A stretch of 64,000 nt of DNA, from contig NC_080589.1 of the NCBI RefSeq assembly GCF_029962835.1, forward strand, positions 17,939,586 to 18,003,585, written 5' to 3'. The notes under the pieces were generated by a model. It searched no databases, had not been told where the DNA came from, and saw only the letters and a list, made by a program, of their open reading frames with translations. Every line of letters starts with the position of its first letter. Position 1 is the first letter of the stretch. Made by a program: the position numbers and the translations under genes. The stretch is from Magnolia sinica. Its lineage: Eukaryota; Streptophyta; Magnoliopsida; Magnoliales; Magnoliaceae. This document shows positions 30,954 to 53,804 of this stretch, piece after piece.

Positions 30954-31023
30954 ATCTCCCACTTGGAGACACATCGCCATAAACCTTTGTCTTCTTCATC
31001 CGGAGTGCACCACCTCCCCGTCT

Positions 31024-32727
31024 TCAAGCCTTGAGACCAATCAAAGCTGAACAGAACTTCAGCTTCTCCCATGTGACCGCCTTGATCAACATATCCGTAA
31101 GATTCTCACTTGTATGAATCTTCTCTAGAGCAATCGATCCATCTTCTAGTAACGAACGTATGAAGTGATATCTGATGGCAATATGCTTGGTCCTTGAATG
31201 AAAGGCTGAATTCTTAGCCAAGTGTATTGCACTCTGACTGTCACTGTACAGCTTGCAATCTGCTTGCTTCTTACCCAACTCTTCCATGAAACCTTACATC
31301 CACACCATCTCCTTGTACACTTCTATAGCTGCAACATATTCTGCTTCCGTTGTACTGATAGATACTATCTTCTGTAACTGAGAGACCCAACTGACTGCAG
31401 CACTACCTAGAGTAAAGACATAACCTGTAGTGCTTCTTCTGCTGTCAATATCTCCTACCAAATCTGAATCCACGTAGCCTTGTAGCTTGATTTTCGATCC
31501 ACCATAGCACAACCCTACATCCTTAGTACCTACCAGGTATCTAAGAATCCACTTCACAGCTTCCCAATGTTCCTTCCCGGGGTTGTTCATGAACCTGCTA
31601 ACAACTCCCACTGCTTGAGCAATGTCTGGCCTCGTGCTCACCATAGCATACATGAGACTCCCAATAGCTGACGCGTATGGGACTTTAGCCATGTAGTCTC
31701 GTTCCTCCTGCATCTTTGCACCTTGCTCCTTAGATAGCTTGAAGTGGTTGGCTAATGGAGTGCTAACCGGCTTAGCACCTCCCATATTGAATCGATCAAG
31801 TACCTTGGCTATGTACTCTGCCTGTGACAAAACCAGTTTCTTGTTTTCCCTGTCACGCTTTATCCTCATGCCTAGGATTTGTTTTGCAGCTCCTAAATCC
31901 TTCATGGTAAATTCTCTAGACAGTTGTCTTTTGAGATCTGAGATGTCCTTTATGCTTGAACCGGCCACAAGCATATCATCAACGTACAGAAGAAGGATGA
32001 TGTATGATGTATCAAACTTCTTCAAATAGCAACAATGGTCTACATGACATCTCCTATAACCGTTTCCCGATATGAAACTGTCGAATTTCTTATACCACTG
32101 CCTTGGGGCCTGCTTCAGGCCATATAGACTCTTCTTCAATCTGCACACTTTGTTCTCCTTTCCTGGTGCCACGTATCCTGTCGGCTGATGCATATATATC
32201 TCTTCTTCAAGGTCCCCATGAAGAAAGACTATCTTAACATCTAGCTGCTCTAGATGTAAGTCCTCTGTAGCCACTATACTCAAGACCATACAAATCGTAG
32301 ACATTTTCACCATAGGTGAAAATATTTCAGTGAAATCAATACCTGCCTTTTGTTGAAAACCTTTTACAACCAATCTAGCCTTGTACCGTTTTGAACCATC
32401 GTGCTCCTCCTTCAATCTTTAAACCCACTTGTTATGAAGAACTTTCTTACCCATAGGTAGGGTGACTAGCTCCCATGTACGATTGGACTTAAGGGAGTCC
32501 ATCTCCTCATCCATGACCTGCTCCCACTTAACCCGTGTATCTATCTTTAATGCCTCTTCAAAACATTCTGGTTCACCATTATCTGTCAGCAGTAGATAAT
32601 ATAAGGAGGGTGAGTATCGGACCGTGGGTCTCCTCTCCCGAGTAGACCTCCTCACAACCGGTGTATGCGGCTCTGCCTCATAATGCTCCTGTGCATGATC
32701 ATCCTGTGGCGCTGTAACACCTGTATC
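31024..32727 (-). pseudogene. Copia polyprotein: reverse transcriptase and RNase H, broken
   Basis: Reading down from 32727: a linker (RRSTRERRPTVRYSPSLYY), then the RT domain with LDVKIVFLHGDLEEEIYM, SLYGLKQAPRQWYKKFD and the catalytic YVDD, then RNase H (GYVDSDLVGDIDSRRSTTGY, ISTTEAEYVA, CKLYSDSQSAIHLAKN, SRTKHIAIRYHFIR). Stops interrupt at about 32416 and 31291. The sequence looks like the Tork/Tnt1 branch. It is the C-terminal part of the same polyprotein whose N-terminal part lies at 51130-53400; the 18.4-kb CACTA element separates them. Confidence 0.9.
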
Positions 32728-33380
32728 CTGTAAGCTACGGCTAAAATCCGTCAGAAAAAAGCCGTCGGCGAAAATAATAATCCGTCAGGAAAACCTCAAT
32801 TTTGGATGGTGGACGTCCAACCGTCTACTGTTTTCCCATTTTGTGGTCCACGTAAGACTTATTTAATTCTCATTTTTGGTGATCTATCCCAAAATAATGT
32901 TGAGAAATGGATGGACGGCGTGGATGAAATATATCCATCATGGTGGGGCCCATAGATCCCTCCCCTTTCCAAAGGTATGTTTACCTTTTTTTTCTGTAAA
33001 AACTGTGAGTTTTAAGTAGAATGTAAAATAGTGGTGACTCCTTTATGAAAATAATGGTAATGATATAGAGTTATCAAGACCATTCAAATAATCCGTTTGG
33101 TTGTAAGTGTTTAATATTTGTAATGTTGTTATATAATACAATTTTAGCCATCCAGAAAATGGTCCCTCTTGCATGTACGACTATTAATAGACGTTTTGTT
33201 ATAAACAATGGTAGACGCACACAGTATCAGATTTGAACTGTTTATCCGATTTAGAAGAGGAATTCCGAAATATCGAGCGCTCGTTTGCTCTTTTTGCCAT
33301 TTTCATCGAGCGGGTCCCTCTTAGACCTGCTTTCGTTTCTATCTTCCAAATGTGATCCGAATCTCAACAATGGAAGCGTT

Positions 33381-34221
33381 AGATCAAAGATTGAAGATCT
33401 AAACTGGGATCTGTGCGGTTGTCGGGAGATTCACGGACTGATGCGATTCCCCGGCAGGTTTTTGCTTTTCACCCACGGACTTCTTTGATAGGTTTCTAAT
33501 TTCATCAGGAAGTGGGCTTCCTGACATGGAGGGCTTGTGTTTGAGCTTGTTGGCTGTATTTCTAGCTTAGTGTAGTCTTTTCTCTTTTCAGTTGCTTTTG
33601 TTTTTTGTTTTTTGTTCCCTTTTGGCTGTTGTCTAATAAAATCGTCACCTTTCAAAAAAAAAAAACTATCATGTGGGCCAGAATGTTAGAAAGTAGCAGA
33701 CAGCGTAGAAAAACTTGCTAAGTTTTTTTTTCCCTGTGACTTTCCATTTGTTTCATAAACTGTGGCCCACATGATCAATCTAGTAGCCTTGAATTTGGGT
33801 GAGGGCATCATATCTTGTGGGATCCACCTGATGGTCGACTTGAAATTGGGTGGTGCACATATACATCGAAAACAGGCTGTTGGTTGGCCCCTTTTAACCG
33901 TCCACTGTCTTGTACACATGCTGCTTGATGATCAGCAGGCAAAAATTTGAGCTACGAAACATTCATTATGGGCTGGCATGATGAATAGCGTGGAACTACA
34001 TGTAGGTGTTGTTGTAGGCATGGGTGGGATAGTTGTGCATATGCCAATCTGCGGCTAGGAATATTTATCCTCAATGACCTGACTTGAGAAACCTGACTGA
34101 TGTGTTGGTGTTATTTTATTTTGGTTTGCAGGTGAATCTTGCCTTCTGCTAAAGTGGAGAACCCTGAACTTGTGGAGTGGTCAGAACCAGTTGCTGAGTT
34201 GCTTGATTTGGATCTGAAAGA
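33381..34221 (+). pseudogene. Selenoprotein O (SelO/YdiU family) gene fragment, two exons with intron
   Basis: Exon A (33381-33457) reads KIEDLNWD and then, after a small frame-shifting deletion, SVRLSGDSRTDAIPRQ, before a GT donor. Exon B (34132-34221) follows TTTGCAG and reads LPSAKVENPELVEWSEPVAE and LLDLDLKE, ending at GA before the consensus donor GTAAGT. Both match the N-terminal part of plant SelO, a pseudokinase-fold AMP-transferase of plastids and mitochondria (family knowledge). Part of the segment between the two is missing (about seven residues around HACYTK). The rest of the gene is absent. The intron has gained a LINE tail and dispersed repeats. The fragment lies inside the inner CACTA, upstream of its transposase. 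Confidence 0.72.
33490..33665 (+). mobile_element. LINE 3' tail with poly(A)
   Basis: Ends TCTAATAAAATCGTCACCTT then TC and a poly(A) run at 33654-33665, preceded by T-rich GTTTTTTGTTTTTTG. This is a typical plant L1-type 3' end. Only the 3' end is present; it sits within the SelO fragment's intron. Confidence 0.55.
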
Positions 34222-35693
34222 GTAAGTGACTTCGCTTGTGGATAGTGTTGCTAGCCCTTTGGTTCTATGTACAAAGCAATTTAAATTGCTAAAACCTTCA
34301 GAATCTCTCTCAGCTTGTTTACCCAGAGCTTCCATGTGAATAACCAAAACCCTGTGACCTCACCTTTTTGCACCATTGTTTACTTTACTTTTGATTTGAT
34401 GGAACATGGGCTTTTCCATCTTTGGGAAATTGGGTCTCTCTGTAGATGTGGTTGCAACTAGTGAAGTCAGTATTTTGTTGGCATTGGATCCCTCAAAGAA
34501 TTTTCACAAAGAATCAATTCAGTAGCAGGCAAGCATAGGAGCTTAAGATCGTGACATTTCATTGAGCTGGTTACTTTCTGTCATCACTTATTGTTGTGTC
34601 CAGCATTTGGTATATTTGCATTCTGTGAATAGATTCCGGCGCCGATGCTGTAATTCACTAGTATGTAGCCAAGTTTGCTATCATTAGCTAAATATAGCTG
34701 TGAGGTTTGTTGAATGAGGAAAATATGCAGGCCTCACCATGGATGGCCCATGGGATAAAAATCCGTAGAACTATGTTATTTGGCCCTTTTTGTGGTTGAA
34801 TGTGAAGGATAGTAGTAATTCTTTCTTGACTACCTATTTGTTGGCAACTACTACAAGGGTTGGGATTTCTCCAATCTGGGAGATTTGCTGAATGGGGCAT
34901 CCATAGTGCAGCCCCTGATTTCGACTATTGGGATCAATGAACTAGGGACCACATTTTAGCACTCCTACAATCTGAAAACTTGAAACAGTTTTGCAACACT
35001 CGGCCTGCCACTTCAAAATTGTTGTAATCTTAATGTTGTTTCAACCATGTGTCTTTTCCTTTGGGATTAGATTGCTACAGTATGAGGATGTATTAGATGT
35101 TAAACGCCGAATACGAAATTAGTTATTCAACCTTTAATCACCACACACATGGTAGGCATATAAAAGATTCTGAATCTTGACTGTTCATCTTTTTTAGAAT
35201 ATGTGTAAATTTATTTTTATTTTTTTGAGCAGGCAACAACATAGCCATTAGCCAGAGCATGGCATCTGTGTAGGAAGGTGTACAACCATGGAAAATAAAA
35301 TGATTTCCCCTGATATGATAGTTTCCCTGTTTGGGAAACCAAAAAAAAGGGGGTAATCAATTTTGTTTCCTAGATTTTCTAAAAAAAATGAGTAAAATCA
35401 TTTCCACACACAAGCGAAAAAAGAAAAAAAGAAACCATTAAATGTAGATTTTCAAATGTCATATTGACTTAGAGAAACATCAAGGAAACATGGAAAAAAT
35501 GGTGGAATTTTTCAATGATAGTTTAGGAGATGCTAACATACACATTTGCATATTTAAGAGTCGAATAATAGCAAAAAATAAGTAAATTTGTATATTTAGG
35601 GATCAAATGATAAATTTCCCTTTAATGGGGGGAGTAAAAGCATGCGTCTTTGATTCGAGGAAACATTGGGGAAACATGGGAAAATTGGTGGAT

Positions 35694-35880
35694 CCATCCA
35701 TACATCCAACGATGCATGCACATGCATAGATACAAACACACATTCATGATCAATCCATCCATCCATACAATCATTCATGCATGCATGCATACATACAATG
35801 ACACATACATATATATACACATGCATGATCCATTCATCCATGCATACACACATACACACATCTATACACATGCATGATCC
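35694..35880. repeat. CATCCATACATxCATGCA-type compound microsatellite
   Basis: Tetranucleotide-like ATCC, ATGC and ACAC tracts, with CATGCATGATCCATTC repeated near 35820 and 35870. Confidence 0.85.
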
Positions 35881-37317
35881 ATTCTTTTCTATGGTTAGCA
35901 TGAATTTTATTTAAAGAAAAAGAAGAAAAATATCATACAACATCCATCAAGTAAATGGAGAAGAATGCCTAGATGAACATAGTTGAGATGCACCTTATTT
36001 TGCTACCCTATTTGCCTGATCATTAGCCTCCCAGGGAATGAGGTTAAATTTGGTGCTTACCTAAGCTAACAATTCTCTAATCTGCTTTGGCTGTTCTTCT
36101 TTTTTCTTTCATGCCAAGGAAATTGCACTCCTTGAATCACCTTCTACAATCAGTTGATGGTTCTCAATCATTCTCCTGATGTGTTTAACGAATTATCCTT
36201 TCTCTTCAACATATTAGTAGAGTTTGACTCTTTTCTTGGCAAAAAAATTTCTGCTAACAAAACTTCTAGAAATATAATTTTCCAGTGTTAAAGAAAGGGC
36301 AACTTGGACGACCAAGCCGCTTTTTTTCTTTGGGTTCAAATAAGAACCCATATTGAGTTACAAAAAGGAAAAAAGGTAAATCAAGAAAGGAAAATGCAAA
36401 TATGGTACCCAAAAACCTTTAGGGGTTATAATTATTCTTCGACATCATGGTTTTGTTTGATACTTGGAAATTGTAACAAGGTTTTCCTAATATCTGTTCA
36501 CATGTTAACACAGACAGCTCTCCTTTTTTTTGGTATATGGTACACATGTATTTGATTATTTCCATTTAACATTCGTCAATAATAAGACTTGGATGATTTG
36601 GTAAGTGGACAATTTGAGTTGATCTTTTAACATTTCCATACAAAACAACCAAACAATGGAATTAGTATTGGAAACTGTTAAATGTAAATTTTCACTTGTT
36701 ATATAATTTGAGTTGACCTTTTGACACTTTCATAGAAAACAACCAAACAATGAAATTATTGATAGATTTTGCAATTTTCTATTTCTTGAAGATTTCATAG
36801 GGGTTTTCAACATCCATATTTTGAATTCTCTCTACCCAAACAGGTTTGGATAAACCAGTTTTCCCCAGTTGGTATTTAAAATTTTACTTCCTTTTGGAAG
36901 GCTAACTTGGGTCCCTTGGGGTCTTTTCCACAGTAGAGGTTTTCAAATCATTGTACCAACAACATGTGATCTTAGAAAAGGCTAGTTTGCCCTTTCCATT
37001 TTCCTTCATTAAAGTCCATGTGCATTGGTTGAAACTAAAAGGGAAATGCTTTGCTAGAGGGATTCATCCAAACTTTCTCACTGGGTAGGATGGTAAAAGG
37101 GAAAAATATCAATGGACCTCATTTAAATGCATGGTTCTTAAATCATAGAGGGACTTTTTGGCATCAAATCTTATTTCAATCATGACATGTACATTTATAT
37201 TGTCGAAAAACAAGTTCATTCAAGAAATTCATGCTAAGGGAGAGAACCCTTCCTCCAAGAGTATTACATCCTATTTTTGTTTGAGGCCTTCTGTTTTAAG
37301 GTGTCTAAGATGTAGTG

Positions 37318-37320
<3 letters not shown>

Positions 37321-37354
<34 letters not shown>
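37321..37354. repeat. (CT)n microsatellite
   Basis: Perfect CT run. Confidence 0.95.
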
Positions 37355-37357
<3 letters not shown>

Positions 37358-38190
37358 CCAAGGGTTGTCGGCTGGATTGCTTGGGCAAGCAACATACACA
37401 ACAACACGACTTGGGTCATTTAGGTGAAGCTCTTACACATGAAGTACAAATATGTTAGACTGTGAATGATGTTTTTGAGGTAAAGATGTTTTCTGTACTT
37501 ATTTATAGTTATGCTTCAAAAACTATTGAAATAATTGATTGTGTTTTACTATAACCCATTTCTTCTTAGATGTTCCATCATGATACAATTACAATTAGTA
37601 TTTATGCCAACTAGTGATTTACAATGTATCCTCCCTGTTTAGGAATTTACATTGAACAAATATATTCATTTGATTAAATATGCTTGTTCTTTATGGATTC
37701 CTAAATTGTCCCATTTTGGACAGTTCAGTACCATACCATGTACTTAGGTTGTCATCATTTTCAGTTTACATGTAGTTGGAAATTTGGTAGTGTCTCCTTA
37801 TATTTTCTCTAGATATGTGGTTCTTTACTAATCGGTTTCCTCTATCCATGTGTAATAGATTACATGTGGCAACTAGTTAGTATTGAATTTTACATATATC
37901 TGAAGAAGATGGGGAGGTGCTGCTGAAATTTCGACTCGCATGTAATCTATATGAGGACAGTACATGGTATGTTATCGAATGAGATAGAAACAATTAACAC
38001 CTCTAGATAGAGACAATTAGCTCATCTAGATAGCAGAGAAGTATGATCAGCAATTTATTGATATGCACAAAAAGATAGGGAGAGTACAAACTTCTTTTCT
38101 AACTTGAGAAGATAACAGAAATATGTATTCTTTTACTCAATGCCCTTGTGACTAGTATTTATTCCATGATTGTATTTCTTTTAGCTCACA

Positions 38191-38400
38191 AAAAGAAATC
38201 ATCCCTAATTCTTTTCTTTTTAGCAAAGTGGCCAACTTATTTCAGATATTAATGATGCATTTTGACAACGCAATGGATTATATGGTGCAACTTCTTTAAA
38301 AAAAAGAAATCATCCCTAATTCTTTTCTTTTTAGCAAAGTGGCCAACTTATTTCAGATATTAATGATGCATTTTGACAACGCAATGGATTATATGGTGCA
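38191..38400. repeat. 99-bp identical tandem duplication (period 111)
   Basis: 38191-38289 and 38302-38400 read identically by eye (AAAAGAAATCATCCCTAATT to TATATGGTGCA), separated by 12 bp. Confidence 0.92.
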
Positions 38401-38589
38401 TTAAATGCTTTCATAGAATGCTAAATGTCTCTTTAATCAAATCAACCATATATCTGTAATGTTTTGATATAGCTTGAATTTGAAAGATGGTGCTTGTTTT
38501 GTTTCAGGAATATAATCCTATTTTTTAGAAGTCCACTTCTCTTGCTGCAGATAAGAACTTGCTTCATTAGGTATAATTTGTATTAATTC

Positions 38590-39221
38590 AACTTGTAACT
38601 CCTCAGAACCCGCTATGCCATAAGATATTATGGTGCATGACAGTTCCCAGTAGGTTAAGTTGCAAGTTGTCACATAAAGTTGGTTGGATATCTTTTATTT
38701 TTATAAATGTTGTCAATAGTTAGTTGGATGATGAATTAGGTGTATAAATGTGTACCTACCTACAGTCTTGCTTAATTTATATTTATATTTCTTTATTTAT
38801 ATTCTTTCGTATAAATCCAACTTGTAACTCCTCAGAACTCGCTCTGCCGTAAGATTTTACAGTGCATGACGGTTCCCAGTAGGTTAAGTTGCAAGTTGTT
38901 ACATAAAGTTGGTTGGATATCTTTTATTTTTATAAATATTGTTAATAGTTAGTTGGATGATGAATTTGGTGTATAAATGTGTACCTACCTACAGTCTTGC
39001 TTAATTTATATTTATATTTCTTTATTTATATTCTTTCGTATAAATCCAACTTGTAACTCCTCAGAACCCGCTCTGCCGTAAGATATTATGGTGCATGACG
39101 GTTCCCAGTAGGTTAAGTTACAAGTTGTTACATAAAGTTGGTTGGATATCTTTTATTTTTATAAATTTTGTCAATAGTTAGTTGGATGATGAATTAGGTG
39201 TATAAACGTGTGTCTACCCAC
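38590..39221. repeat. 229-bp tandem repeat, 2.75 copies, directly upstream of the transposase
   Basis: ACTTGTAACTCCTCAGAACC starts at 38590, 38819 and 39048, an exact 229-bp period. The copies differ at a handful of positions. Each carries CTACCTACAG or CTACCCACAG before the unit's end; in the last copy this becomes the splice-acceptor-like CCCACAG just before the transposase ATG at 39234. Confidence 0.92.
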
Positions 39222-39233
39222 AGGTGGTATCCA

Positions 39234-42200
39234 ATGGACTCTAGGGAGTGGATTACTTTACATTACCCAGACCCACAATTTATAGATGGTATGATGAGCT
39301 GTGTGAAGTTCGTAAAAGAACATCTTCCTGGTAGAGAAACCATTCATTGTCCATGTACCAGATGCAGATGTCTACGTTTACCCTGCACAATTGATGATAT
39401 GGTGATAGATCTGATTAAATATGGATTTAATCCAACATATGGGGAGTGGAACATGCACGGTGAGCATGCATCACCTAAGTATACCGAACGCACTTCTCAC
39501 CAGTACCATAGTGTGGCAGACATAAATAACATTGTCAATGTCGTTGTTGAAGACCTCGTTGTAATAACCTGGACCAAGTTATTCAAGATGAACCCAATGT
39601 AGCCCCCGAAGCTGAAAACATTGTTGGAGATGCTTCAACCAATGAGTTTAAAGCAAATGTACGAGATGTGATGACTAAGCTCTATCCTAGTTATCACAAA
39701 TTCACTGTGTTAACTTTCATTATACAACTTTTTAAATTAAAGGTGAACCATAGATGGAGTAAACAAAGCTTTACGGCTCTTCTTCAACTACTCCAGAATG
39801 TCTTACCATCCGGTAATAAGAGCCCAATTCATACCTACCAAGCGAAGAAGATCATTACAAAGCTGGGTCTTGATTACCAGAAGATTCATGCATGTCTAAA
39901 TGACTGCATGTTATACTAGAGAGAGTATGAGACGAAGATGAGTTGTCCAAACTGTGGTACTTCTAGGTACAAGACAGATCTTGATTCGAAGTTGAAACGA
40001 GCTCAAGTACCTGTGAAGGTGTTCAAGTATTTCCATTAACACCAAGGCTATAAAGAATGTATAGTGTGTCATGGGTGGCAAAGGAGATGACCTGACACTC
40101 AACCGAAAAAATGCAGAGTAGAAAGATGGGGCATTCGGTGGACTCCAACACATGGAAGTTTCTTGACAACAAGTATAAGAAATTTTCAATAGTCTCTCAA
40201 TTTTTGATAGGGTCTAGCTACAGATGGGTATAACCCCTTTGGCACTTTCAACACGTCGTATAGTTCCTGGCCTGTTATGTGTGTGACATATAACCTTCCA
40301 CCAAAGTTATGTATGAAACCGCAGTTTACTATGCTCACTTTACTCATTGAGGGACCACAATAGCCCTGGAAGGATATTGATGTTTATTTGGAGCCATTGA
40401 TTACTGAGTTACTAGACTTGTGGCGGAAAGGGATCACGACATTCGACACATACCATGGAAACATGTTCAACATGCGTGCCATCTTACTGTGGACAATTCA
40501 TGACTTTCCCGCATATGATAATGTTTCTGGTTGTAGGACTAAGGGTAAGTATGGTTGTCCTGCATGTGGTCCCCACGCAGATTCCTTATAATTACACCAT
40601 AAAAAGAAACACGTTTATATCGGTCACAGACGGTGGTTGCCTCTAAACGATAAAGCCAGAAAGGATACAAGTGCAGGCACCTTCAATAAGAAGGTAGAGT
40701 TGCAACCATAACCGATTCGTCTGACTGGAATTGAGGTCGAAAGTATCGTTTCGAAACTAAATGTGCAGTGGGGCAAGATCGGAAAGAGGAAACAAAGTGG
40801 TACAAAAGGAGGACGGGAACAAAATGATGATGCAGAATCAACAGGCTGCTTGAAGCGATCCATATTATATGATCTGGAGTACTGGAAGGATATTCCCATA
40901 CACCATAACCTTGATGTTATGTACATCGAGAAGAATGTATGTGAAATCCTTATTGCATTGATGTTGAACACAACGGGCAAAACCAAGGACGATGCTAACG
41001 CACGCAGAGACTTGAAGCAGCTAAGAATTAAGAAGCGTTTATGGTCAAAAAATACTGATGGCAAGGTCATCTAAAAATGAGGTCCTTTCTTCCTTCAAAA
41101 ATAAGAAAAAAAAACTTTTTATCCAGACTTTACGTGAGCTTCATGTTCTAGTTGGTTTTAGTGGGAATTGGAAGAACATTGTAAAGGAAGACAGTGTCGA
41201 TTTAAAGGGAATGAAGTCTCATGATTACCACGTGTTAATGCAACATCTGCTTCCAATTTTGATCCAATATGCATTCAGGGATAGTAAGCTTATGCGCACT
41301 CTAATTAGAAGCTTTAGTACATTCTTCAATGCCCTATACTCATGCACTATAGATATTGAAATGTTAATTGCTCTCGAGAAGGGCATGGCTAGGACTTTAT
41401 GTGAGCTCGAGATTACATGCCCTCCTTCAATTTTTGTTGTGATGATGCATCTGCCTACCCACTTGGCTTGCGAGGCTCGCGTATGTGGTCCTGTCTACTA
41501 TTGATAGATGTATTCATTCAAAAGGTATGATATGATTTTAATGTGAATAAACCAACCCAACATCTGTAATTACATTTTCTAATGTGTCGTTAACTCTTTT
41601 AGGTTCATGAAGATGTTTAAGGCATACGTCTGCACTAAGACACGACCTAAAGGTTGTATAGCAGAATGATACATTCAAGAGGAGACACTTATATACTGCA
41701 ACCAGTATAGAGGGAAAAATAATACAAGCCTCTTGGAGAAACTGGAAAAGCGGTTTGACGGATCAATTTCACTCACGCCAAAGTTACAAGATATTGTTGA
41801 CGACTTCGATGTTGACGTGATCGGCCCAGTTGGCCTTGGGAAAAGTATCGTTTTAGAAGGTATTGAGTATGAATAGGCTCGCACCTGGCTATTGAAGAGT
41901 CATCCCAACTATGAGACATGGCAAGGGTACGAACAAGACTTAGCTTGTATGTATATGTCTTCTTCATTTTTTTTTTCAAATTTGATTCAATAACATTGTA
42001 ACAACATTTATGAAAAAAATTGTCAATTTTGTAACAAATTTCTTAACTTGTAGGAAATATGCTAATTTCTTAAAGCAACGAATGATGATGAGTTCATACC
42101 TTGGTTGAAGAAATAGCTAGACTTGAATGAATAAGTAATGAAGTCTTCAGAGATATAGTTAGGGGACCAAAGGCTTTTGTGATGCAGTATAATAAGTATT

Positions 42201-42785
42201 GTATCAATGGTTTCCTCTTCGTCACCAAGGAATACGAAGAGAATAAAGTGAACCAGAACAGTTGGGTTAGCATAGAGTATGACCACCTTCGGATCTAGTG
42301 CTAAGGACAAGAATCCAGTGGATGAATCCGTACCTTATTACGAAGTCCTTCGCAAAATCATCCAACTGGAGTACCAAGATGGTTACAAGCTAGTCCTACT
42401 AAAGTGTGATTGGGTGAAGGTGATGCACCAAGGTGTTTCTTTCTATGCGGAAGGGAATTTGAGACTAGTGAATTTGTCTAATCTTCTTAGTTCAGACCAA
42501 GTGGGTGATGAGCCATTTATTCTTGCAGAGCATGCCGTGCAGGTTTTCTATTCTAGGGATCCAAAAAATCTTGATTGGCATGTGGTCTTGGAGGTTTTAA
42601 GAAAGATTTTCGTTGAAGATGAGACAAGCCTTTTATCAGAAACACGGGTTGTAACTAAGGTTGAAGTAGGACCTGATCTCACCGAAGTAGACATGGGTGG
42701 CGAGTTGTTATTAAATGACATTGAAGATATTTGTGTGGTTGTTGAAAAGAAAAAGAAAAGAAAGAGAGCAAGGAAAAAAACCTAA
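39234..42785 (+). pseudogene. Inner CACTA transposase (tnpD/tnp2 type), broken
   Basis: Domains in order: transposase-associated domain at 39234-39600 (MDSREWITLHYPDPQFIDGM, CPCTRCRC); 39668-39960 (LYPSYHKFTVLTF, KKIITKLGLDYQKIHACLND, CPNCGTSRY); the tnp2 core at 40200-41070 (GYNPFGTFNTS, FNMRAILLWTIHDFPAYDNV, GKYGCPACG, HHNLDVMYIEKNVCE); DUF4218-like at 41058-41690 (FFNALYSCTID, HLPTHLACEARVCGPVYY); and DUF4216-like at 42279-42785 with a basic tail. Stops at about 39917, 40037, 40589 and 41070 and several frame changes show it is dead. The start is the first ATG after the last 229-bp repeat. Confidence 0.85.
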
Positions 42786-42959
42786 TTTGTTGGTTATATT
42801 ATGCATGTAGCGAAACGATTTTAATTTATGCCCTTTTTTATTTTTCCATTATCATATTGATATGATAGAAAAAATTTACGAATTAATTTACTCGTCTCTT
42901 TATTATACTTGGTACTTTGCTATTTGGATAGAAATTTTTCTAGTAATTACGTTACAAAT

Positions 42960-45125
42960 TAGATCTTAAAGATGGATCTAGAGGCAGAACCGCTCGGGGA
43001 TGCATCCCATAAAGATGTCACGGGTAATAACATAGCTCTCGTTAGCTATTTAGATTTAAATTTTCTTTTAAAATGATCTTTCACTTAGAGGTAGTGTCAT
43101 TCGACGCAGAGCTGCTAGGGGATGCAGCGCCTGAAGATGCAGCCCCTAAAGATGCTAGTGGTAATAAGATAGCCTTCCTCAATTGTTTAGATTTAAAATT
43201 TCTTTTATATTGGCGATGATGAAACATGTGTGTAGCTATTTTTCTTTTTATGCCAGGGGTAATAGCATAGCTCTCGTTAGTTGTTTAGATTTAAAATTTC
43301 TTTTAAAATGATCTTTCACTCAGAGGCAGAGCTATTCGGCGCAGAGCCACTAGGAGATGCAGCTCCTGAAGATGTAGCCCTTGAAGATTCTAGAGGTAAT
43401 ATGATAACCTTCCTTAATTGTCTAGATTTAAAATATCTTTTATATTGGCGATGATGAAACATGTGTGTAGCTATTTTTCTTTTTATGCAGGCAGGTCGTC
43501 ATCTTCATCGTCTAAGAAGAGAGGTCCTATGCGAGGTTCATAATTAAATGAAAAGACTTCATTGAAAAGGGTCATTAGGATTAATGAATTTCGGCAACCG
43601 AATGCAGGGGATGCAAATCAGATCGCATTCAATTCAAGCATTGATGTTCGCACCCGTGCACACATTCCGATCACCTACATAGACTTTCGGTTGGTGTCTC
43701 TACAGTATATTCAGAGGGTCAGTGATATCCTAACGTGTAGTTATGAATTTCAGGATAACCAAGAAGCGTGGCCACAATACGTTCGTGATCACTGTAAGGC
43801 CGCTTGGAGAAATTTTAAGAACACTTTGCATACGAAGTATGTTAAGGACAAGGATCCTGCAGTTGTGAAATCGTATCCCGCCCCTATTGGTGTCCCTATT
43901 GAGGATTGGATGATCTTCATGGATTATTGTAATACTGATAAATTCAAGGAATCAAGTGGAAGAAATGCATCCAATTGGGCCAAACAAGTTAGCCCTTCTA
44001 CACTTGGTCGGCGTAGCATGGCTGGCACATGTCATGAGATGGTACATGTCCTAAAATAACATAGCTCTACTTTATTTATGATGATTATTTCAATTTATTA
44101 GTCGTTTAATTCCATTATTTATGTGTTTTGGCATGGATGTTATGGGGAAAAGGCAATTGAGAGGAATCTTACTACTGATGTTGAGGTTGGTAGGGCTAAG
44201 GTGTACATCCGAGCCCATACAACGAAGGATAACAAAGTGTAGTTTCCAGAAACATTTGTAAGTGCAACCCTCGTACATCCTTTCATTATCCATGTGAATT
44301 TTAAATATATGCTTCTTTCCCGCACTATAAATTTTCTTTTGGATGTTGTCATAGGAAAAATTAAAATAGATTTAAAGTAGTAATCCTGCATCTCGGATGA
44401 CCAGTGTAGATGATGCCCTTACACAGGTATATATGCTTGTCCCTCAAATACTTCATTTTATTTAGACTTATGCATTCTTTGATAAATCTAATTGTAATTC
44501 TGTTTACAGTCAATTGAGAGTGATAATAGAGGGCACATGCGGGGGATAGGTGGAAATGTAGGCAAGACTGCATTGAAGAAGACAATGCCTATTGTACATA
44601 AGCTCGGTGCGCTATCGCAGGAATGAGATAATTTGATAGATGAATTAAGTTAAGTGAAGAAAAGCCTAGGAGATCTCCACTAGAAGGTTAATTGCTTTGC
44701 AGATAACTAAGGGGAACAAAGGGATGTGGCTCCACCGACAATACCTCCACTTAAATCTAGTCATGCATCGTCAGTATGTATGCATTTCTCCAATACTAAT
44801 TTAAGCTTATGATTATATGCACCTCTATCTAAAAATACTAATGACATGTTATATGTGTACATGTAGCCTGATTTAGTAAATCTTGGCAAGAGATGTGATC
44901 TTTGCGATTGGAAGAAACAGGTAATTGCTCGTGCTGAGGTGCATGCAGTTGATCTAAATACTTGTGTCCATGGAGCAGAAATGGGCGATGAAAATTTTAG
45001 TGTCATCCTGATAGAGATTATAGCTCTACAATCATAGTTATGGAAGGAAGATGGTTATCATGATACACTTGGAAGTGTAGGAGGATTTTTCATCTGGCCC
45101 AAGCTATTTCTAACCATCTATCCAT
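42960..45125 (+). pseudogene. Inner CACTA second gene (tnpA / Transposase_24-like), broken
   Basis: The upstream exon-like blocks encode acidic repeats (AEPLGDAAPED type). The main exon, 43562-44059, reads RVIRINEFRQPNAG, then TSYIxF-like strand sequence, DHCKAAWRNFKNTLHTKYV, PIEDWMIFMDYCNTDKFKE and RNASNWAKQ, characteristic of the En/Spm tnpA-like family that binds element ends. About 44150-44240 reads AIERNLTTDVEVGRAKVYIR. About 44880-45110 gives the C-terminal end (GKRCDLCDWKKQVIARAEVH, LWKEDGYHDTLGSVGGFFIW). Stops (44240, 45037) separate parts. Confidence 0.7.
43023..43495. repeat. 235-bp tandem duplication of a tnpA exon plus intron
   Basis: GGTAATAACATAGCTCTCGT at 43023 recurs at 43258, and the second sub-block (GGTAATAAGATAGCCTTCCT at 43161) recurs at 43396, both 235 bp on. 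Each unit holds a short acidic-repeat exon followed by a GT-started intron. Confidence 0.85.
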
Positions 45126-45393
45126 GATGTTTATGAATATTAGACATTACAATAACTAACACAATTAACTTTTGTTTTTAAACTATACAGTAACATAGAC
45201 AAATGCATGCATATTATGGAATCGAATGAATTTAACACTCACGTCAGATTACACCCACATATATTGAATGGAATGGATTTAACACCCACATTTATACATT
45301 GATATGTTTGGTTGGTATTTCAATTGTCAACCTCCATTTGAGGAATTGAAAGATTTGTAATAATTTTCACTTCTTTAAGTGTAATTTGCACTT

Positions 45394-45395
<2 letters not shown>

Positions 45396-45454
<59 letters not shown>
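45396..45454. repeat. (GA)n microsatellite, about 58 bp
   Basis: Perfect GA dinucleotides, the longest such run in the window. Confidence 0.95.
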
Positions 45455-45459
<5 letters not shown>

Positions 45460-45664
45460 GGGGTTTTCGTTTTTGAACGGGCGCTGTTGCAGAGAATGCG
45501 CCACCAGCAGGTGTACAGAAATTACACCTCAAACAAAGTACCATCTGTTGTAAGTTACTTCAAGGGTAAATGGTTTTACTCTGGCTATCTTAAAATCATG
45601 TAAATAGCAAGATGCTGATGCCAGAGGTACTCTTATTTGCAGGATATGGTTTTGAGTGTTGCAG

Positions 45665-45983
45665 GATCATCTGCTGAAGCTACACTGGCTGGTTCTCACC
45701 CTAAAGGTACTCTTACATTTTTTTGATGCCTTGATTGCTAAGTACACATTTGGGACTGATCTGGTTTCTGTTGTTGCAGGTTGGTATAGGTGTCACTTCA
45801 GGGGGAGTTAACCAGATAAGTTTATATTTTTCTTTTTGGTTGCATTTGAGTGTCTAATTACCTGCTAGCCTTCTTTTCTTTTCTTTTTTCTTTCTTTCTT
45901 TTAATTGTAATTCTCTTTGACTGTTTTAGATCAATAAGGGACGTCCCCGTATTCAAGGAACGGTTTCAACATGACAATGACGG
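45665..45983 (+). pseudogene. Unidentified exon-like blocks (three) in inner CACTA
   Basis: 45665-45706, 45780-45819 and 45931-45983 each follow a pyrimidine tract plus AG and end before GT (GTACTC, GTTTAT, GTAAGC). Possible peptides include SSAEATLAGSHPK, VGIGVTSGGVNQI and RDVPVFKERFQHDNDG, without a frame that joins all three. I do not recognise the gene. They look like captured host exons, because neighbouring segments clearly are. Confidence 0.35.
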
Positions 45984-46069
45984 TAAGCTTAACTCTAAAT
46001 ATCACCTTTATAATCAGAATTTGTGCTCTTTATTGTCTGCTTTTGAACTATAATTTTTTATATAATTGA

Positions 46070-46228
46070 CACCTTTTATCTCGGAATATGATCTATGAAG
46101 TAGCATATGAACGCAATCCCCATCAAAATCCACACCTAGGGGAGTGTAAATAAGAGGATTGATCTTAACAGTATGGTCGTCATGCACATAGACAGAAAAT
46201 GCTTGCAATGAATGTTTATGAGTACTCG
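46070..46228 (-). pseudogene. Fragment of RNA polymerase IV/V largest subunit (NRPD1 or NRPE1), catalytic-site region
   Basis: On the minus strand from 46228 the frame reads PSTHKHSLQAFSVYVHDDHT, then VKINPLIYTPLGVDFDGDCVH. This is the segment of the large subunit around metal-binding motif A (DFDGD). The wording (SLQAxSVYVHxDHTVKINPL) is that of the plant-specific Pol IV/V subunits rather than Pol I-III. Pol IV and V make RNAs for RNA-directed DNA methylation. The frame is open over the homologous part, but the match ends after CVH and no other exon was found nearby. Its orientation is opposite to the transposase and VPS2 pieces. Confidence 0.75.
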
Positions 46229-47315
46229 GTAATTTTGGAGTCCTTCTTGGTTAGGGTTTGGGCTGAAAGTACGAGTGTTGGAGCCGATGCTTTGAGTCCG
46301 AACTCATTCTTTTGAAAAATAGAAAAATGGGAATATTAGTAAATATGGATTTTCTTGTTAAGAAGAAAATGGAAGATGGATTGAAAAAACATCCAGTAGA
46401 TTTTTTCTTCTTCTTCTTCTTTTTTGCTTCAAGAGAGAGAGATAGAGAGGTAAGAGTGGGGAAATCGAGGGAGAGAGTGGGGGATTGAAGTAGCCGCGTG
46501 AGATTTGAAAATAGCAAGTGTAGTTTGGTTTGAAAATGATATTTCACATGCGTGGCGTGCGTGTCCATGAGATGTGTTTGTGTCCAGCAGATTACTTTTA
46601 GATTGTGTTTGTGTCCAGCAGATTACTTTCTTATTATTTTTAGCACAGATCTACTGTTGTGGGCCTCTCTCTCATTTGATGATTGCAATCTATACCATGT
46701 GCAATTCAAATGGTAGTGCGCTATTACAGAATGTGTTGCACGAGGTTCCTAGAACTACGGTGACCTTTTGTCCAAGGCAGGTAATGTCTATCTATGCCAT
46801 CCAATTCTCAGATGAGGGGAGTGGCACATCATGAATTTTCTGTAGCATGGAGCAGTTTCCTAAGCTTATCACTGGGAGGGAGCTGGTTGATCTCCCCTTC
46901 CTGAGATTTGCTTCAGAGTTCAGACAAGGTTGGTATGTGGAACACAAGTGCAAGATCCAAGTTGTCCACCAATTGAGTACCAGCTTGCAAATGTCCTATC
47001 CTAACATTCATGCTGCTCTATTCTTGTTGACCATAACATTTGAAATAGGGAAATTTAGCAACCTGTTTTTTTTTTTTTTTCTGCCCATCCATTTCTCTGT
47101 ATCTTGAACTCATGTCAATTTGCCATATGTGGTTGCATGAAGGAGCTTGGGTTGTACACACATTTGGGATTAGAAAGACCTTGTTAGCAGAAATACTAGT
47201 TATTAACCTACATTGAGCTATCTATTTTTTGCCGTCTCTCTTCATCACTAGAGTAATTCTACCCTTTTTTGAGTATTGAAATCCTTGTCATGCTATTTGG
47301 GTTCCCTTTTTGCAG
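46229..47315. other. Inner CACTA, no recognised gene
   Basis: Contains a short direct duplication (GTGTTTGTGTCCAGCAGATT near 46576 and 46606). The open frames at 46574-46834 and 46847-47107 have no domain I recognise. Confidence 0.35.
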
Positions 47316-47375
47316 GTGCAACCTGGTCTTTCTGCACTTGAAGATGCAATGGAGGTAGGATATGAAGATTTCAAG
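47316..47375 (+). pseudogene. Unidentified 60-nt exon with canonical splice borders
   Basis: TTTTTGCAG precedes and GTAATC follows. The single open frame reads VQPGLSALEDAMEVGYEDFK. Family not recognised; probably another captured exon in the inner CACTA. Confidence 0.35.
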
Positions 47376-49203
47376 GTAATCAACCCAATTTCTCAAAAAT
47401 CTACAATTTTTTAATCGTAAGATTGATGTTAGCAGAATGTTTTCATTCAAACAAGACCAATGTAATCTGCTTGAGAGTTTTCAATGGCGAGAGTTTAGTC
47501 CCCATTGTGTAGTCTGCTTGATCCTTGTATCTGGCTGATTTTTGTTTTTATATCCTAAAATGATACTAAACAATGGATGGACAGTGTGGATAGGACACAT
47601 ATATCATGGTGGCCACTCAAAGCTGCTTACTGTTCTAGTTGGAGATGCGCCCGTCTGTTTTGTTAGCTTATTTTAGGACATGGGATAAAAAATGAGCAGA
47701 ATCTAATATTCAAGTGGGCTGAAAAATGTGAGGATTGAACGTCTGCTGTTGAAATATTCATGAGGCTGCTGAAGTTTTGAATTAGGGTAATATTTGTGTT
47801 CTCATTTCATCCCAATGGAATTGAGGTTATGAACTGTACGTGTGGCATTTAAACATCACTGTCGACGGATCCTTACTCTTGCTCGAGGTAGTCTCTCGGG
47901 AGTTTGGTTTAAGATTACTTAATCACTTCAGCTTAAAAAGTAGAAACCAAGATAAGCAGTCATGTTTGAAACAAGAGTCATCACTCATGTAAATATGCAT
48001 TTCTTTTAAGACAGTGATTTGATTTTACTGAAGACAATTGAGTTACATAGGTATTTAATGTATAAGTGGCTATAGGATGAAGGAATGACAAAATCAGTGT
48101 TAGGTATTGCTGTTGCATACTTCTTAAATGCTTTTGAATTGTGTTGAAAATTATTTTCCAGCAGGCTTATTACTATATTTATGTTGAATGAAAGTAAATT
48201 GACTGGATAATTATTTAGGGGTGGTTATGGGCCAGGTTTGGGCCATGTCAAGGTCATCCTGAATCTAACCTATTTACTAATTGAGCCAAAATCAGACTTC
48301 ACATACATTATTTTAATGCAAGCCGAGGTTAAACATCTTATGCTAGAAGTAAGATTCATTTTTCTCTACTTGTTACTTTATTAAAAGCATGCCACCATTT
48401 TTCTCTTGTCCAATCTATTGATATGATGGACTCCCTGTAGATGGGAGATGCACCAAAAATTTGCCAAATTGGAGGATCCTAACAATTATTCTTAAGAGCA
48501 GTAACAACCCATATTCTGAGATTTGTTTTGGGAGATGAGTGTTTGATGATGCAGGCTGAAGTGTATCATTCGTACATGGAAGTGTTACAAAAAAGTTTAT
48601 GACTCTCTGACTCGATTTGAAACTGGTAAAATTCAAATCTTAAGAGTGGCTAGGCTCTGATACGATTGAGTCGCGGACCTCTGTCACAGGTGCACACTCA
48701 ACCAGCAAGCTATGCAATTGTTAATTGTTAATTGTTAAATCAATAGTCATTTTAGACCTTTTTCCATATGGTAAAAGAAACATCATCAGAACAGGAAAGA
48801 GTTTGCTTATTTATCATTTGGATGTAAAACACCAAAATAGTGGTAGGGCCGGACTTCCCACCCAACTGCTATTTTTTACATTTGGGGTGGTGTGAAAAAC
48901 TGAACCCATATGAAATCATTTTAAACCCATTTACTTCATGGTAAAAGAAATGGTATTTCGGCAAAAGTTAATTATTAATCATTCGGATAGCGTCGAAATA
49001 GTGATTGGCGGGACTTCTGATCAAACTAGATGCAATTTTTGCATTTGGGGCGGTGTGGAAACTGAACCACATAAAGCATGCTTCTATTTCTTGCCTTTCC
49101 AACTCAGAAGTAAGAGATGTATGGTTTTGGCTATTGAAGGGAACACGTATGGCCTGCATTTTTAGCTTTTCACACCATTATGTGATCATATTGCATCCAC
49201 CAG
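47376..49203. other. Inner CACTA, dispersed repeats, no recognised gene
   Basis: 47520-47860 is a copy of the ATGGATGGACAGTGTGGATA dispersed family. Near 48770-49130 the GGTAAAAGAAA...TCATTTGGAT...CATTTGGGG block occurs twice (48774-48900 and 48942-49070) as a diverged direct repeat. Confidence 0.45.
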
Positions 49204-49804
49204 GCTGCCACTAGAATCTTGGCCCGTCAACTCGTCCGTCTGAGGCAGCAAATCACCAACTTGCAAGGGAGTCATGCACAGATCAGAGGGGTAGCAACTC
49301 ATACACAGGTCTGAATTTCTAACAACAACACAGCGTGGTTATTTCTCTGTAATTGGCTCTCAGTTATCTACTTCTATAAACAGCATTTGATTTTATTTTT
49401 ATTTTATCTTTTCAGGCCATGTATGCTAGTACTTATCGTAAAGGAATGAAAGGTGCAAGCAAAGCAATGGCAACTATGAATAAAGTATGTACTTTTGCTT
49501 ACATGTAACGGACCATTAGATGTGATTTAACTTTTATTGTCAATGTCCAAAAATCAAATGTAGAGTTCAGGTGTACAACTTCCCAAGCTTACCAATGCAT
49601 GTCATCTGTGTTTATTGCATGATCATTTACCTTGCCTTTTCCTCTCTAAGTAGTGAAGAATACTGTTTCTCTTAGGGTAGTAGAATGTTTCTTGTACATT
49701 CTCTTATGACCTTCCAAATACATTGGTATTTTTAGCGAATGGCACCAGCAAAGCAGGCCAAAGTGATGCAAGAATTCCAACAGTCAGCACAAATGGACAT
49801 GACG
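49204..49804 (+). pseudogene. VPS2/CHMP2-type ESCRT-III subunit fragment, three in-frame exons
   Basis: 49204-49308 (AATRILARQLVRLRQQITNL, QGSHAQIRGVATHTQ), 49416-49484 (AMYASTYRKGMKGASKAMAT, MNK) and 49736-49804 (RMAPAKQAKVMQEFQQSAQM, DMT) each have AG before and GT after. All three are in phase 0 without stops. Together they are the central helices of a plant VPS2.2/VPS2.3-like protein, part of the ESCRT-III membrane-scission complex on endosomes. The N-terminal exon and the C-terminal exon with its MIT-interaction motif are absent. The intact frame and splice sites suggest recent capture or that the exons still join into transcripts. Confidence 0.82.
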
Positions 49805-50636
49805 GTAATTTTTGTTGATACTAATTCCTACTCGAGCTTTCAATACTCATTATATTTATTAGCTTACACTGCATTTCGATGCACGTGCAAATTGAATTGT
49901 GAATATTTCATTTAGTACTCACAGCGAGGAAACTGCCCTCAAATTTAGAACATGGTACATCCCACATGGATACAACATACACGTCATTTGCACGAGGAGT
50001 GGAATGATAAAATAGAAAGTATGCATATTGACACAGGTATAAAAAATCTCAATGGATGAAGTGTCCATAAGCTTTTGACGCTTTATAATATATACGCATT
50101 ATTCTGGAGACATTTTGTGGAAATATAGAAATATGAGAAATATGAAAAGAAACAGATATGTGGGTTATCAGAATCAAAGTGTCCATGAGGTTGTCGAAGT
50201 TTAGTAGAAATATTTAAGAAATGAAAATGCATGTATTGTGACACATCACAGCCTAATTGTCCCTGAGGTTTTTGTGATGTCCATGTGGTCATCATATCAA
50301 TGCTCCAGATCACTTAACCATCTGTCCCACTTGCATAGATCATTAGAGTTGAAGTGCCTGGAAGGTTCTTGCAGTATGCATGGTGGGTCCATCAGATCAA
50401 CTGCACGTCCCTAAAATTATGGGCCCCCCACTTGTACTCTTTGTATCAGAATTGAAGCTTATGTGAGTTTTTTGTGGCATCCATGTTAGGGCCCATCAGT
50501 TGAATGTGGACTACATTTCTAGATTTAAAGCCAAAGACTTCAAGAAAACCCCCACAGGTCAGGTAGCAAGAAAAACAAAGACTTAAATGATATGTGGTTT
50601 CTTTTTTTTAAAGCATATATCCAATCCAAATATTTG

Positions 50637-50884
50637 GAATTTGGATGACATATTTAATTTTGATTTCTTCCTTTTCTATTGTGTAAACTTACCTTCTCAA
50701 ATAGGTTGGGTCGTTCAAAGCTTTAGAGAAATGGGTATATCTAGTTTTGGATGTGTGCGTTGATTAATACACATCCATAACTAGATATACCAATTTCTCC
50801 AAAGCCCCAATGAACCATCTTATTTGAGAAGGAAAAGTCTACACGAAAAGGAAGAAATCAAAATCAAATATATCATCCAAATTC
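50637..50884. repeat. 248-bp foldback with ~118-bp arms
   Basis: The left arm (GAATTTGGATGACATATTTA to TTTTGGATGTGT, 50637-50757) is the near-perfect inverse of the right arm (ACACATCCATAACTAGATAT to TCATCCAAATTC, 50770-50884). The 12-base loop is at about 50758-50769. No terminal repeat typical of a MITE family in this window is evident, and no protein is encoded. Confidence 0.9.
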
Positions 50885-50914
50885 TTATTTTTTTCTTTTT
50901 AATTAATGAGAATC

Positions 50915-51128
50915 GCCGACGGTTTTTAGCCGTCGATTATGCCGACGGATTTTAGCCACCGACAACGCCGACGGTTTTTAGCCACCGACAACGCCGATGT
51001 TTTTTAGCCGTCGGCGAGCAACGCCGACGCATCCTTTACCGACAAACCTTGTGACCGTTAAAAGCCATTGGGGAAGGTCATTGCCGACGGTTTTTGGCTG
51101 TCGGTGTTGTCCTGTTTTTTTGGTAGTG
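50915..51128. repeat. Inner CACTA right terminus with subterminal repeats
   Basis: At least seven copies or half-copies of GCCGACGG(T)nAGCC(G/A)(T/C)CG-type words precede the terminal GTTGTCCTGTTTTTTTGGTAGTG. Such clustered short motifs are the binding sites for the tnpA-type protein in CACTA elements (family knowledge). Confidence 0.8.
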
Positions 51129-51129
51129 T

Positions 51130-53400
51130 TTCTTCTCATTGTGTTTTTGGATTGGGCTGACGTTGGGATAACCTAGCCTCTTCCTCCATAAGGTGTGACT
51201 GAATTCTTTGAATTGAAAATTACGTCCTTGCTTCTTATGATTTTCTTATTTTCTGCATCCCAAAACCTGTAGCCAAAATTATGCTGCCCGTAGCCTATAG
51301 ACGTGCACCTCCTGGACTTCGCATCCAGATTGTTTCTGTGCTCTGCATCAATGTGAACATATGAAGTGTAACTGAACACTTTGATATGTGCAAGGTTCAC
51401 TTCTTTCCCAGTCCACTTTTCTTCTGCTAGCTCACCATCCAATGGTGCTCAGGGACTTCTATTGATGAGATATGCGGCAGTATTCACAGCATTTGCCCAA
51501 AAGGTCTTGAGCAACCCTGTATTTAGCCTCATGCTCCTAGCACACTCAAGGATGGTCCTGTTAATGCGCTCAGCCACACTGTTCTGCTAAGGTGTCCCTG
51601 GAATCATTTTCTGATGTTTGATTCCATTTGCTGCACAATACTCCTCAAATTTCTTATCACAGTACTCTTCCCCATTATTAGATTTGAGACATTTTACTAT
51701 TTTACCTGTCTCATTTTCTACCATAACTTTTCACTTCTTAAATACATCAAATACATCAGATTTGTGCTTTAAGAAATAGACCCACAGTTTTCTACTAGCA
51801 TCATCAATAAAGGAAACAAAATAACGTGAGCCACCAAGAGATGATACTTGTGCCGGTCCCCACACATCAGTGTGTACAAGCTCCAACAGATGCGTCTTTG
51901 GAGCGCGTCTTGTCTTCTTGAAACTTACCCTCTTCTGCTTGCCATACACGCAGTCCTCGCAGAATTCTAAGTCAATAGACTTCAGCCCTGGTAGCTTCCC
52001 TTTTGACAATAGCACTTTCATCCCTTTCTCACTCATATGTCCCAACCTCTGATGCCATAACTGCCCATTCACTCCAGTTGATGCGACTGAGAGTGAACAA
52101 TACGATCCTGAAGTCACGTATAAAGTACCTTCCTTTTTCCCTCGAGATATCACCAAGGCACCTTTTGTGATCTTCTAGGAATCACTAGTGAATGTCGTCA
52201 CATAACCAGTATCGGCCAATTACCCCACTGAGATCAAGTTACGTTTCAAACTCGGTACATGTCTGACATCCTTCAATTTCAAAACCGTTCCGTCTTTCTG
52301 ATTGACATGAACGTCTCCCTTTCCAACAATACTGCACGGCTCATCATCACCCAGGTAGACTCTCCCAAAGTCACCTGACACATAATCACGCAGAACTTCC
52401 TTACATGAAGTGGCATGAAACGAAGCACCCGAGTCTATAACCCAAGACTCATTCCTCGCATCAAGAGACAAGATCAACGCCTCTGTGTCACTCTCCTCAG
52501 ATAGATTCACTGAATCCTTCCCGCCTTGAGAGCTTCCTTCTTGTTTCTTGAGCGCCCTGCAATCACGTTTCATATGCCCCTTCTTGCCGCAATGCCAACA
52601 CCCGTCTTTGTCTTTCGGTCCCTTGGACTTCTTCCTCGACTTAGAACGCCCGTGTTTATTGCCTCCTTTGTTCAGCGATCTTCCTCTTCCTTCAACGTTT
52701 AGAGCATTCCCTGAATCCCCTGAAACTCCTGATGCCTTTCTTCTAGATTCTTCGCTGAGAATTAGACCGGCCACATCATCAAATTTCAGCTTTGTCGACC
52801 CTGAAGAATTGCTCACAGCAATCACCAAACCATCCCAACTGTCTGGCAAACTGGACAAGATCAATAACGCCCTGACCTCATCCTCAAAAATAATGCCAAC
52901 GGATTCCAACTGGCTCGTGACTGTATTGAACTCGTTTAGATGTTCAGCCACGCTCCCACCATCTGACATCTTCATGTTGAATAGTTGTTTCATAAGATGA
53001 ACCTTGTTGGATGCTGAGGGCTTTTCATACATGGTGGCTAGGGCTTCCATTAATTCTTTTGTAGTTTTCACCTTGGATATGTTGAAGGCGACGCTCTTAG
53101 ACAAAGAGAGTCGGATCGTTCCTAAAGCCTTCCTATCCAGTAAAAACCATTCATCATCTGTCATCTTTTCTGGTTTCTTCTCTTTTCCTCCTAGAGGAAT
53201 ATAGAGGTCCTTCTGATAAGATAATCCTCCATCTGCATTTTCCAGAAGATAAAGTTTGAACCATCAAACTTCTCAATTCTAGTTTTCCCTTCTTCCGTCA
53301 TCGCTCCCAATAGAACTAAACCAATAGCTTTGATACCAGTTGTTGCGCAGCACGCCAACAACGCAGTGAGCCTAGATCCAATCTCAGGCCTCACCCACAA
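51130..53400 (-). pseudogene. Copia polyprotein: gag, protease and integrase, broken
   Basis: Down from 53400: gag start (RIEKFDGSNFIFWKMQMEDY), a frame change near 53190, then 53164-52220 with the gag domain, zinc knuckle CWHCGKKGHMKRDC and protease WVIDSGASFHAT. 52156-51731 carries the pre-integrase HxxxH/CxxC region (LWHQRLGHMSEKGM, CEDCVYGK) and the integrase start (HTDVWGP, FVSFIDDAS). The integrase continues to about 51170 with stops (51728, ~51588, 51170). The Copia sequence runs to the CACTA junction at 51129. It connects with the RT region at 32727. Confidence 0.88.
53326..53337 (-). other. Copia primer-binding site (initiator-Met tRNA)
   Basis: The minus strand reads TGGTATCAAAGC, one mismatch from the complement of the initiator-Met tRNA 3' end, three bases inside the LTR edge at 53341. 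Confidence 0.75.
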
Positions 53401-53804
53401 ACGATAAACAGGAAGAAATATAAACTAGAAATAGATCAAAGCATTCAAAACAAACTACATGACAAGATATACGTGGAAAAACCCCAAACTAGGGTAAAAA
53501 GCCACGGATGTAAACTTCCACTATGAGGAACGACGATTACAAAGCAATATACTAACCTCTCCCTTGGAAGTATATAGAAAACCCTTTGCCCACACCTTAG
53601 AATAATTTTTTCTTGCTTTTTTCTCACTATGAAAAACTCTAGGAACCCCTGTTTATAGTTTAGGAAACTCCCCTTTCCGCATCCCAGTTGCGAAAGGACT
53701 TGCGACACGAAATCCGTGCAAAATCGCGGAACGAATCTGTGTAACCTCGACTGGTCGTGCAGCCTGCACGACCGGTTGAGAGGACCCCACGACCGGTCAA
53801 ACAC
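53341..53804 (-). mobile_element. Copia 5' LTR (right side), lacking its outer end
   Basis: The inner edge is complete (TGTTGCGCAGCACGCC, i.e. ...CAACA on the minus strand) next to the primer site. It aligns with 30409-30830 but stops at CGACCGGTCAAACAC, so about 120-150 bp of the U3 end present in the left copy is missing. tnp2 sequence resumes directly at 53805. Confidence 0.82.

Follow-up and report, generated by a model that had tools for sequence, protein, structure and literature searches.

A left-truncated CACTA transposon of Magnolia sinica with pieces of several host genes, probably carried into a Ty1-copia polyprotein gene

CACTA transposons that carry pieces of host genes are known from several plants, and here we compare them with a CACTA (En/Spm-like) insertion of around 18.4 kb found in a 64-kb stretch of Magnolia sinica DNA (contig NC_080589.1, positions 17,939,586 to 18,003,585; "the window" below means this whole stretch and not the inserted interval itself). 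The soybean element Tgm-Express1 of the wp allele is described as holding fragments of five donor genes with introns (PMC1947982); as reported, it is 5.7 kb long with its host gene fragments lying between Tgm ends, whereas the Magnolia element is 18.4 kb long, left-truncated, and has kept transposase remnants. The En/Spm-type Tpn1 family of Ipomoea nil is characterized by an interior of captured host genic regions and sizes of up to 40,619 bp, and most of its copies are presented as having apparently functional ends and an interior swapped for host DNA, unlike the Magnolia element, while TpnA2, a truncated member in which sequences of TnpA and TnpD are present, resembles it (PMC5105172). Grape Cactavine-5 (PMC2528002) and the CACTAs of Chenopodium (PMC8978399) are described as combining transposase with captured host gene pieces, and a Chenopodium quinoa element shares a tandem array with the Magnolia element (PMC8978399), but the accounts of both give one donor gene per element compared to at least three in Magnolia. 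Pack-TYPE elements of maize are reported to contain often more than one locus, Pack-CACTAs most of all, and coding cargo from more than one locus is common to the Pack-CACTAs of Arabidopsis and maize and to the Magnolia element (PMC8903248). That class is, however, defined by the lack of a transposase match (PMC8903248), whereas the Magnolia element has Transposase_21 along with its VPS2, NRPE1, and SelO pieces between two ends; it works like a Pack-CACTA yet is not filed as one. CACTA elements of more than 20 kb and host gene capture are also cited as known in a paper on bean (PMC4938662). An earlier note on this DNA, made from its letters alone, stated correctly that gene transduplication by CACTA elements occurs in other plants, as the soybean, Ipomoea, and maize reports confirm, but its view that cargo from many donors next to the element's own transposase is unusual is weakened by five donors in soybean, several loci in maize, and transposase with host pieces in grape and Chenopodium. 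Multi-donor, intron-retaining capture by CACTA elements is already established, and the Magnolia element differs in degree and is a good but ordinary new example, adding a multi-donor case of one long CACTA that combines captured exons and introns with remnants of its transposase.

The best reading of the locus is a single CACTA element with at least three unrelated, intron-containing host gene pieces copied from genomic DNA, and we put at roughly 80% the probability that this element picked up the pieces, jumped into the polyprotein gene of a Ty1-copia element, and was deprived of its left terminus afterwards. The position of the insertion (32734-51128) is defined by a Ty1-copia element on the minus strand that occupies 30409-53804 and is split into two parts recognizable by Pfam matches and long terminal repeats (LTRs). 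Its left part (30409-32733) consists of a truncated LTR and the reverse transcriptase/RNase H side of pol, with RVT_2 (3.3e-66 in Pfam) in the open reading frame 31297-32418; the right part (51129-53804) comprises the SH3-like end of the integrase (SH3_retrovirus, 6e-23), the pre-integrase (gag_pre-integrs, 1.8e-18, with a sub-cutoff match to rve in the same piece), gag (Retrotran_gag_2, 2.2e-31), and another truncated LTR. Four of the five Copia pieces taken for the Pfam scan gave matches, the fifth (32422-32739) gave none, and the domains on both sides of the interval lie on the same strand and in the expected order. The two halves are thus one polyprotein, and the interval interrupts a single gene in the linker between its integrase and reverse-transcriptase regions. 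The 18.4-kb CACTA transposon proposed in the earlier note is therefore best read as a single insertion into one Copia polyprotein gene, with the qualification that its left end is truncated and that neither transposase gene is alive any longer.

At the right end, the terminus ...TTTTTTTGGTAGTG (in its longer form ...CCTGTTTTTTTGGTAGTG) ends at 51128, and 26-bp tandem units lie upstream of it at 50914-51009, so that repeat and motif scans together delimit a plus-strand subterminal region of such units with the terminus ...GGTAGTG at 50914-51128. The 17-mer subterminal unit GCCGACGGTTTTTAGCC was found, allowing up to 4 mismatches, at 7 sites in the 64-kb window and nowhere else in it: 5 on the plus strand (50915-51099) beside the right terminus, and 2 on the minus strand (32739-32769). 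A second motif, a 19-mer, has 5 plus-strand sites and 1 minus-strand site in the same two places. Inverted similarity between the ends is also apparent when the left 77 bp are compared with the reverse-complemented right end (score 38, against 30 for the best of 1,000 shuffles, none of which matched it, and 24 for a same-strand control). The CACTA right terminus and the matching inverted subterminal repeats on the left that had been claimed are thus both present, and the left units, found by motif scan and shuffles, can be placed at 32734-32810 (annotated on the plus strand). Of the CACTA...TAGTG termini, only TAGTG at 51128 is found, beside the unit repeats. The left terminus that the earlier note wanted defined is absent: the flank ...ATCCTGTAAG runs into CTACGGCTAAAATCCGTC (reading CTACGGC...) with no CACTA, and the TTT to the right of the terminus has no counterpart at the left flank (...GTAAG) that would form a target duplication of 3 bp or, rarely, more. 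We read this as loss of the left terminus, with at least about 25 bp missing as judged by eye, or as much as about 170 bp should the right-hand unit that matches best be the true counterpart. The absence of a target duplication is expected if the left end was deleted and bears on the completeness of the element; its assignment to the CACTA family rests on the transposase and the subterminal units.

The transposase genes lie on the plus strand. A tnpD remnant (39201-42785) contains Transpos_assoc (2.4e-12), Transposase_21, DUF4218 (3.2e-12), and DUF4216 (3.3e-16), with Transposase_21 in two pieces separated by a stop (1.6e-20 and 2.2e-27); these domains mark a transposase of the TnpD/Tnp2 type. 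Besides frame changes, it has nine in-frame stops in 39551-41071. The tnpA-like remnant (43544-45034) shows a partial Transposase_24 (5.7e-4, profile positions 5-51 of 138) and a weak Transposase_23 (0.022), both below the curated cutoffs. The element has therefore kept the domains of its own tnpD and, less certainly, traces of tnpA, as had been proposed, but as remnants, and its transposase is dead now.

Two of the donors, VPS2 and NRPE1, are well supported at the sequence level, and SelO less strongly so. The VPS2/CHMP2 fragment (49204-49804, plus strand) matches Snf7 in Pfam (4.9e-12) and human CHMP2A (4.9e-8), and its three exons (49204-49308, 49416-49484, and 49736-49804) all have AG/GT borders with the introns kept between them, fully in line with the three-exon fragment that had been claimed. 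On the minus strand, antisense to the transposase genes, a piece at around 46083-46232 spans the DFDGD motif of NRPE1, the largest subunit of Pol V. It matches residues 415-464 of this protein at 2e-17 and RNA_pol_Rpb1_2 in Pfam at 1.1e-7. The earlier note had left its identity between NRPD1 and NRPE1 while giving the opposite strand correctly; since the Pol V match is far better than the one to Pol IV (8e-5), we reject NRPD1.

Two further donors are perhaps represented by plus-strand, exon-like groups A (45480-45982, four pieces) and B (46690-47375). AG/GT borders are found at A2, A3, A4, and the last exon of group B (47316-47375, the sole exon checked there), while the first piece of group A has a donor only, so the two splice-bordered exon groups noticed before are recovered with partial borders. 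Neither group matched anything in Pfam or NCBIfam, their matches in PDB were at chance level (a glucanase at E 0.86 and 0.92 for group A, DotB at E 1.4 for group B), and tblastn of group B against plasmids gave no match.

The SelO fragment, the third of the donors, lies on the plus strand as an exon 1 piece at 33384-33457 (with a frame change inside and a donor GT at 33458) and an exon 2 piece at 34132-34221 (PSAKVENPELVEWSEPVAELLDLDLK; acceptor AG before 34132 and donor GT at 34222). The pieces follow each other in SelO order with residues missing between them relative to homologues, and some residues are missing at the start of exon 2 relative to bacterial SelO; with the frame change in exon 1, these missing residues mean that the copy cannot be a working gene. 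In a comparison with the first 70 residues of 56 SelO proteins, none of 500 shuffles reached the score of exon 2, whose counterpart for the latter part of the exon 1 piece was reached by 3 (mean) and 9 (maximum) of 500 and for the nine residues at the start of that piece by 48 and 49, respectively. A hidden Markov model (HMM) built from 56 of 80 SelO loci (L003-L058; the 24 weaker ones were dropped) ranked the window reading frame 34136-34222 first of 3,431 frames (model positions 37-61) at an E-value of 0.012 that is below the HMMER inclusion line. The SelO fragment that had been proposed is therefore favored by its rank and by the exon 2 shuffles but falls short of formal inclusion.

Several points weigh against our reading. 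The loci behind the HMM were gathered with a query composed in part of window residues and in part of residues of plant SelO; of its six search patterns, one (ENPELVEW) came from the window, which makes the test somewhat biased. The SelO pieces had no match to SelO in Pfam, NCBIfam, or PDB (where 4 designed proteins were returned), and tblastn with the window residues alone gave 7 Sulfitobacter records, of which the 6 annotated ones are all efflux adaptor proteins. With exon 2, a SelO-like plasmid protein from an unannotated record scored 50 against a shuffle maximum of 40, but a second one, annotated as YdiU family, reached 34 against 38, and neither protein gave a score with the pieces of exon 1. 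With CACTA and the target duplication missing, the left border depends on subterminal units that amount to a few dozen bases. Finally, the density of stops in the tnpD frame 39551-41071 (9 in 507 codons) exceeds that of the Copia frames (7 in 1,267, from 5/696 and 2/571; Fisher p 0.023), which speaks for our reading, but the ranges were picked by the analyst after the open pieces were visible, one more stop of the Copia frame (51173-51175, beside the junction) is outside of them, and part of the tnpD stops possibly fall in introns. This difference is gone in 40211-41071 alone (3/287, p 0.41), and it is only suggested that the transposase was already dead at arrival.

Taken as one element with internal cargo, which is the simplest reading, the locus probably formed when a CACTA transposon acquired pieces of VPS2, NRPE1, SelO, and perhaps two more chromosomal genes. 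The likely route would be error-prone repair of breaks in the element during which copying switched to unlinked genomic templates, similar to the gap filling by template-switching repair described for animal Pack-TIRs (PMC8277862), and the copying of DNA would explain why introns were carried along. That cargo lies to the left as well as to the right of the transposase genes is compatible with several captures, and several separate events are plausible from this layout, as the earlier note had proposed, but a single repair with template switches could also supply several pieces. The element, its cargo presumably already inside, would then have moved by cut and paste, possibly relying on a transposase provided in trans, into the Ty1-copia polyprotein gene, where loss of the left terminus would afterwards have made it immobile.

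Alternatively, the cargo could have been delivered by other gene-carrying elements (Helitron, Pack-MULE, or Pack-hAT) nested in the CACTA. The right-hand cluster at 45.4-50 kb, made up of several unrelated pieces in both orientations, speaks for this explanation. Maize Helitrons hold several unrelated gene pieces in both orientations. We scanned 32601-51300 for hAT-like, 9-bp and 10-bp MULE-like, and Helitron-like ends of nested elements of 150-12000 bp; each type was represented by a single simple model, and sequences shuffled in 50-bp blocks served as controls. No candidate for a Helitron 3' end (hairpin plus CTRR, AT insertion, perfect stem of 6-8) was found on either strand of this range, and the 9 hAT-like pairs were within shuffle range (reached by 2 of 10 shuffles). 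The MULE-like pairs, 8 at 9 bp and 8 at 10 bp, were each reached by 1 of 10 shuffles, which leaves something in favor of nested carriers, yet the best of their inverted repeats match at just 15 of 24 bases. These scans gave nothing convincing for several independent insertions with their own termini, the outcome that would have spoken against a single element, and we regard delivery by nested carriers as unlikely. Slightly more doubtful still is the hybrid-element model, reported in a review for Pack-CACTA of Arabidopsis (PMC13317346), in which two related CACTA elements form a composite and bracket host DNA: it could account for cargo to the left and right of the transposase genes, and the missing left terminus would suit aberrant excision, but the interval has a single set of transposase remnants, the scanned motifs gave no subterminal units inside it, and the two places within it where the terminus pattern recurs (ending at 37792 and 49655) have no such units alongside. 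That the fragments are host gene remnants present at the locus before the transposons is highly improbable, since both flanks are one Copia polyprotein gene and the content thus arrived with or after the insertion, even if the left boundary is imperfect.

For the single CACTA element with internal cargo, the oddest detail is that one piece covers the active site of Pol V in antisense orientation, which is probably a coincidence. We consider it very far-fetched that the element gains from it through transcripts or small RNAs that dampen Pol V, which helps silence transposons; if true, the piece would be a nucleic-acid counter-defense taken from the silencing machinery itself. Going by titles and the starts of abstracts (an ONSEN paper was among the matches), we found no NRPE1 piece in a transposon among the papers listed, which does not establish its absence from print. 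For now the fragment is a curiosity, and small-RNA data would be an inexpensive way to resolve it. Beyond this, the enclosing Copia element can bound the age of the CACTA element, and, if other copies exist, shared versus private cargo would show whether the pieces were acquired singly or jointly.

The interval contains several other repeats. A 229-bp tandem repeat in about 3 copies (38577-39263, plus strand) lies on the upstream side of tnpD, a 235-bp tandem duplication (43015-43484, plus strand) between tnpD and tnpA, and a fold-back inverted repeat resembling a miniature inverted-repeat transposable element (50628-50893, no strand assigned) adjoins the right subterminal region. (TC)n and (GA)n runs in inverted orientation (37320-37354 and 45396-45454) bracket the transposase region, possibly by chance. 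The segment 32827-32956 resembles a dispersed repeat around 10.3-11.9 kb of the window (75.6% in blastn), and so does around 47425-47848, here among the matches listed of the translated comparison only.

By its content, the window reads as plant nuclear DNA in which nested transposons are abundant. Instead of a short target duplication, the Copia block is bracketed by a 167-bp direct duplication (30242-30408 and 53805-53971, 164 of 167 positions identical), and a side-by-side comparison of its two LTRs gives the impression that both outer ends are truncated. Mismatches are more frequent in the shared part of the LTRs (28/352) than in the 167-bp duplication (3/167; Fisher p 0.005), and this greater divergence of the LTR part suggests a later arrival of the 23.4-kb block at this site through break repair or another non-canonical route. 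The block is surrounded at 28763-30241 and 53972-54656 by the tnpD remnant of an older CACTA, with matches in 3 of 8 scanned pieces (Transpos_assoc at 2.3e-12 and Transposase_21 at 9.5e-27 on the left, DUF4218 at 2.8e-10 on the right). Its presence on both sides gives a nesting order of CACTA within Copia within CACTA. Long arrays of 21-bp tandem units are found at 15350-16068 and 17936-18174, both outside the interval.

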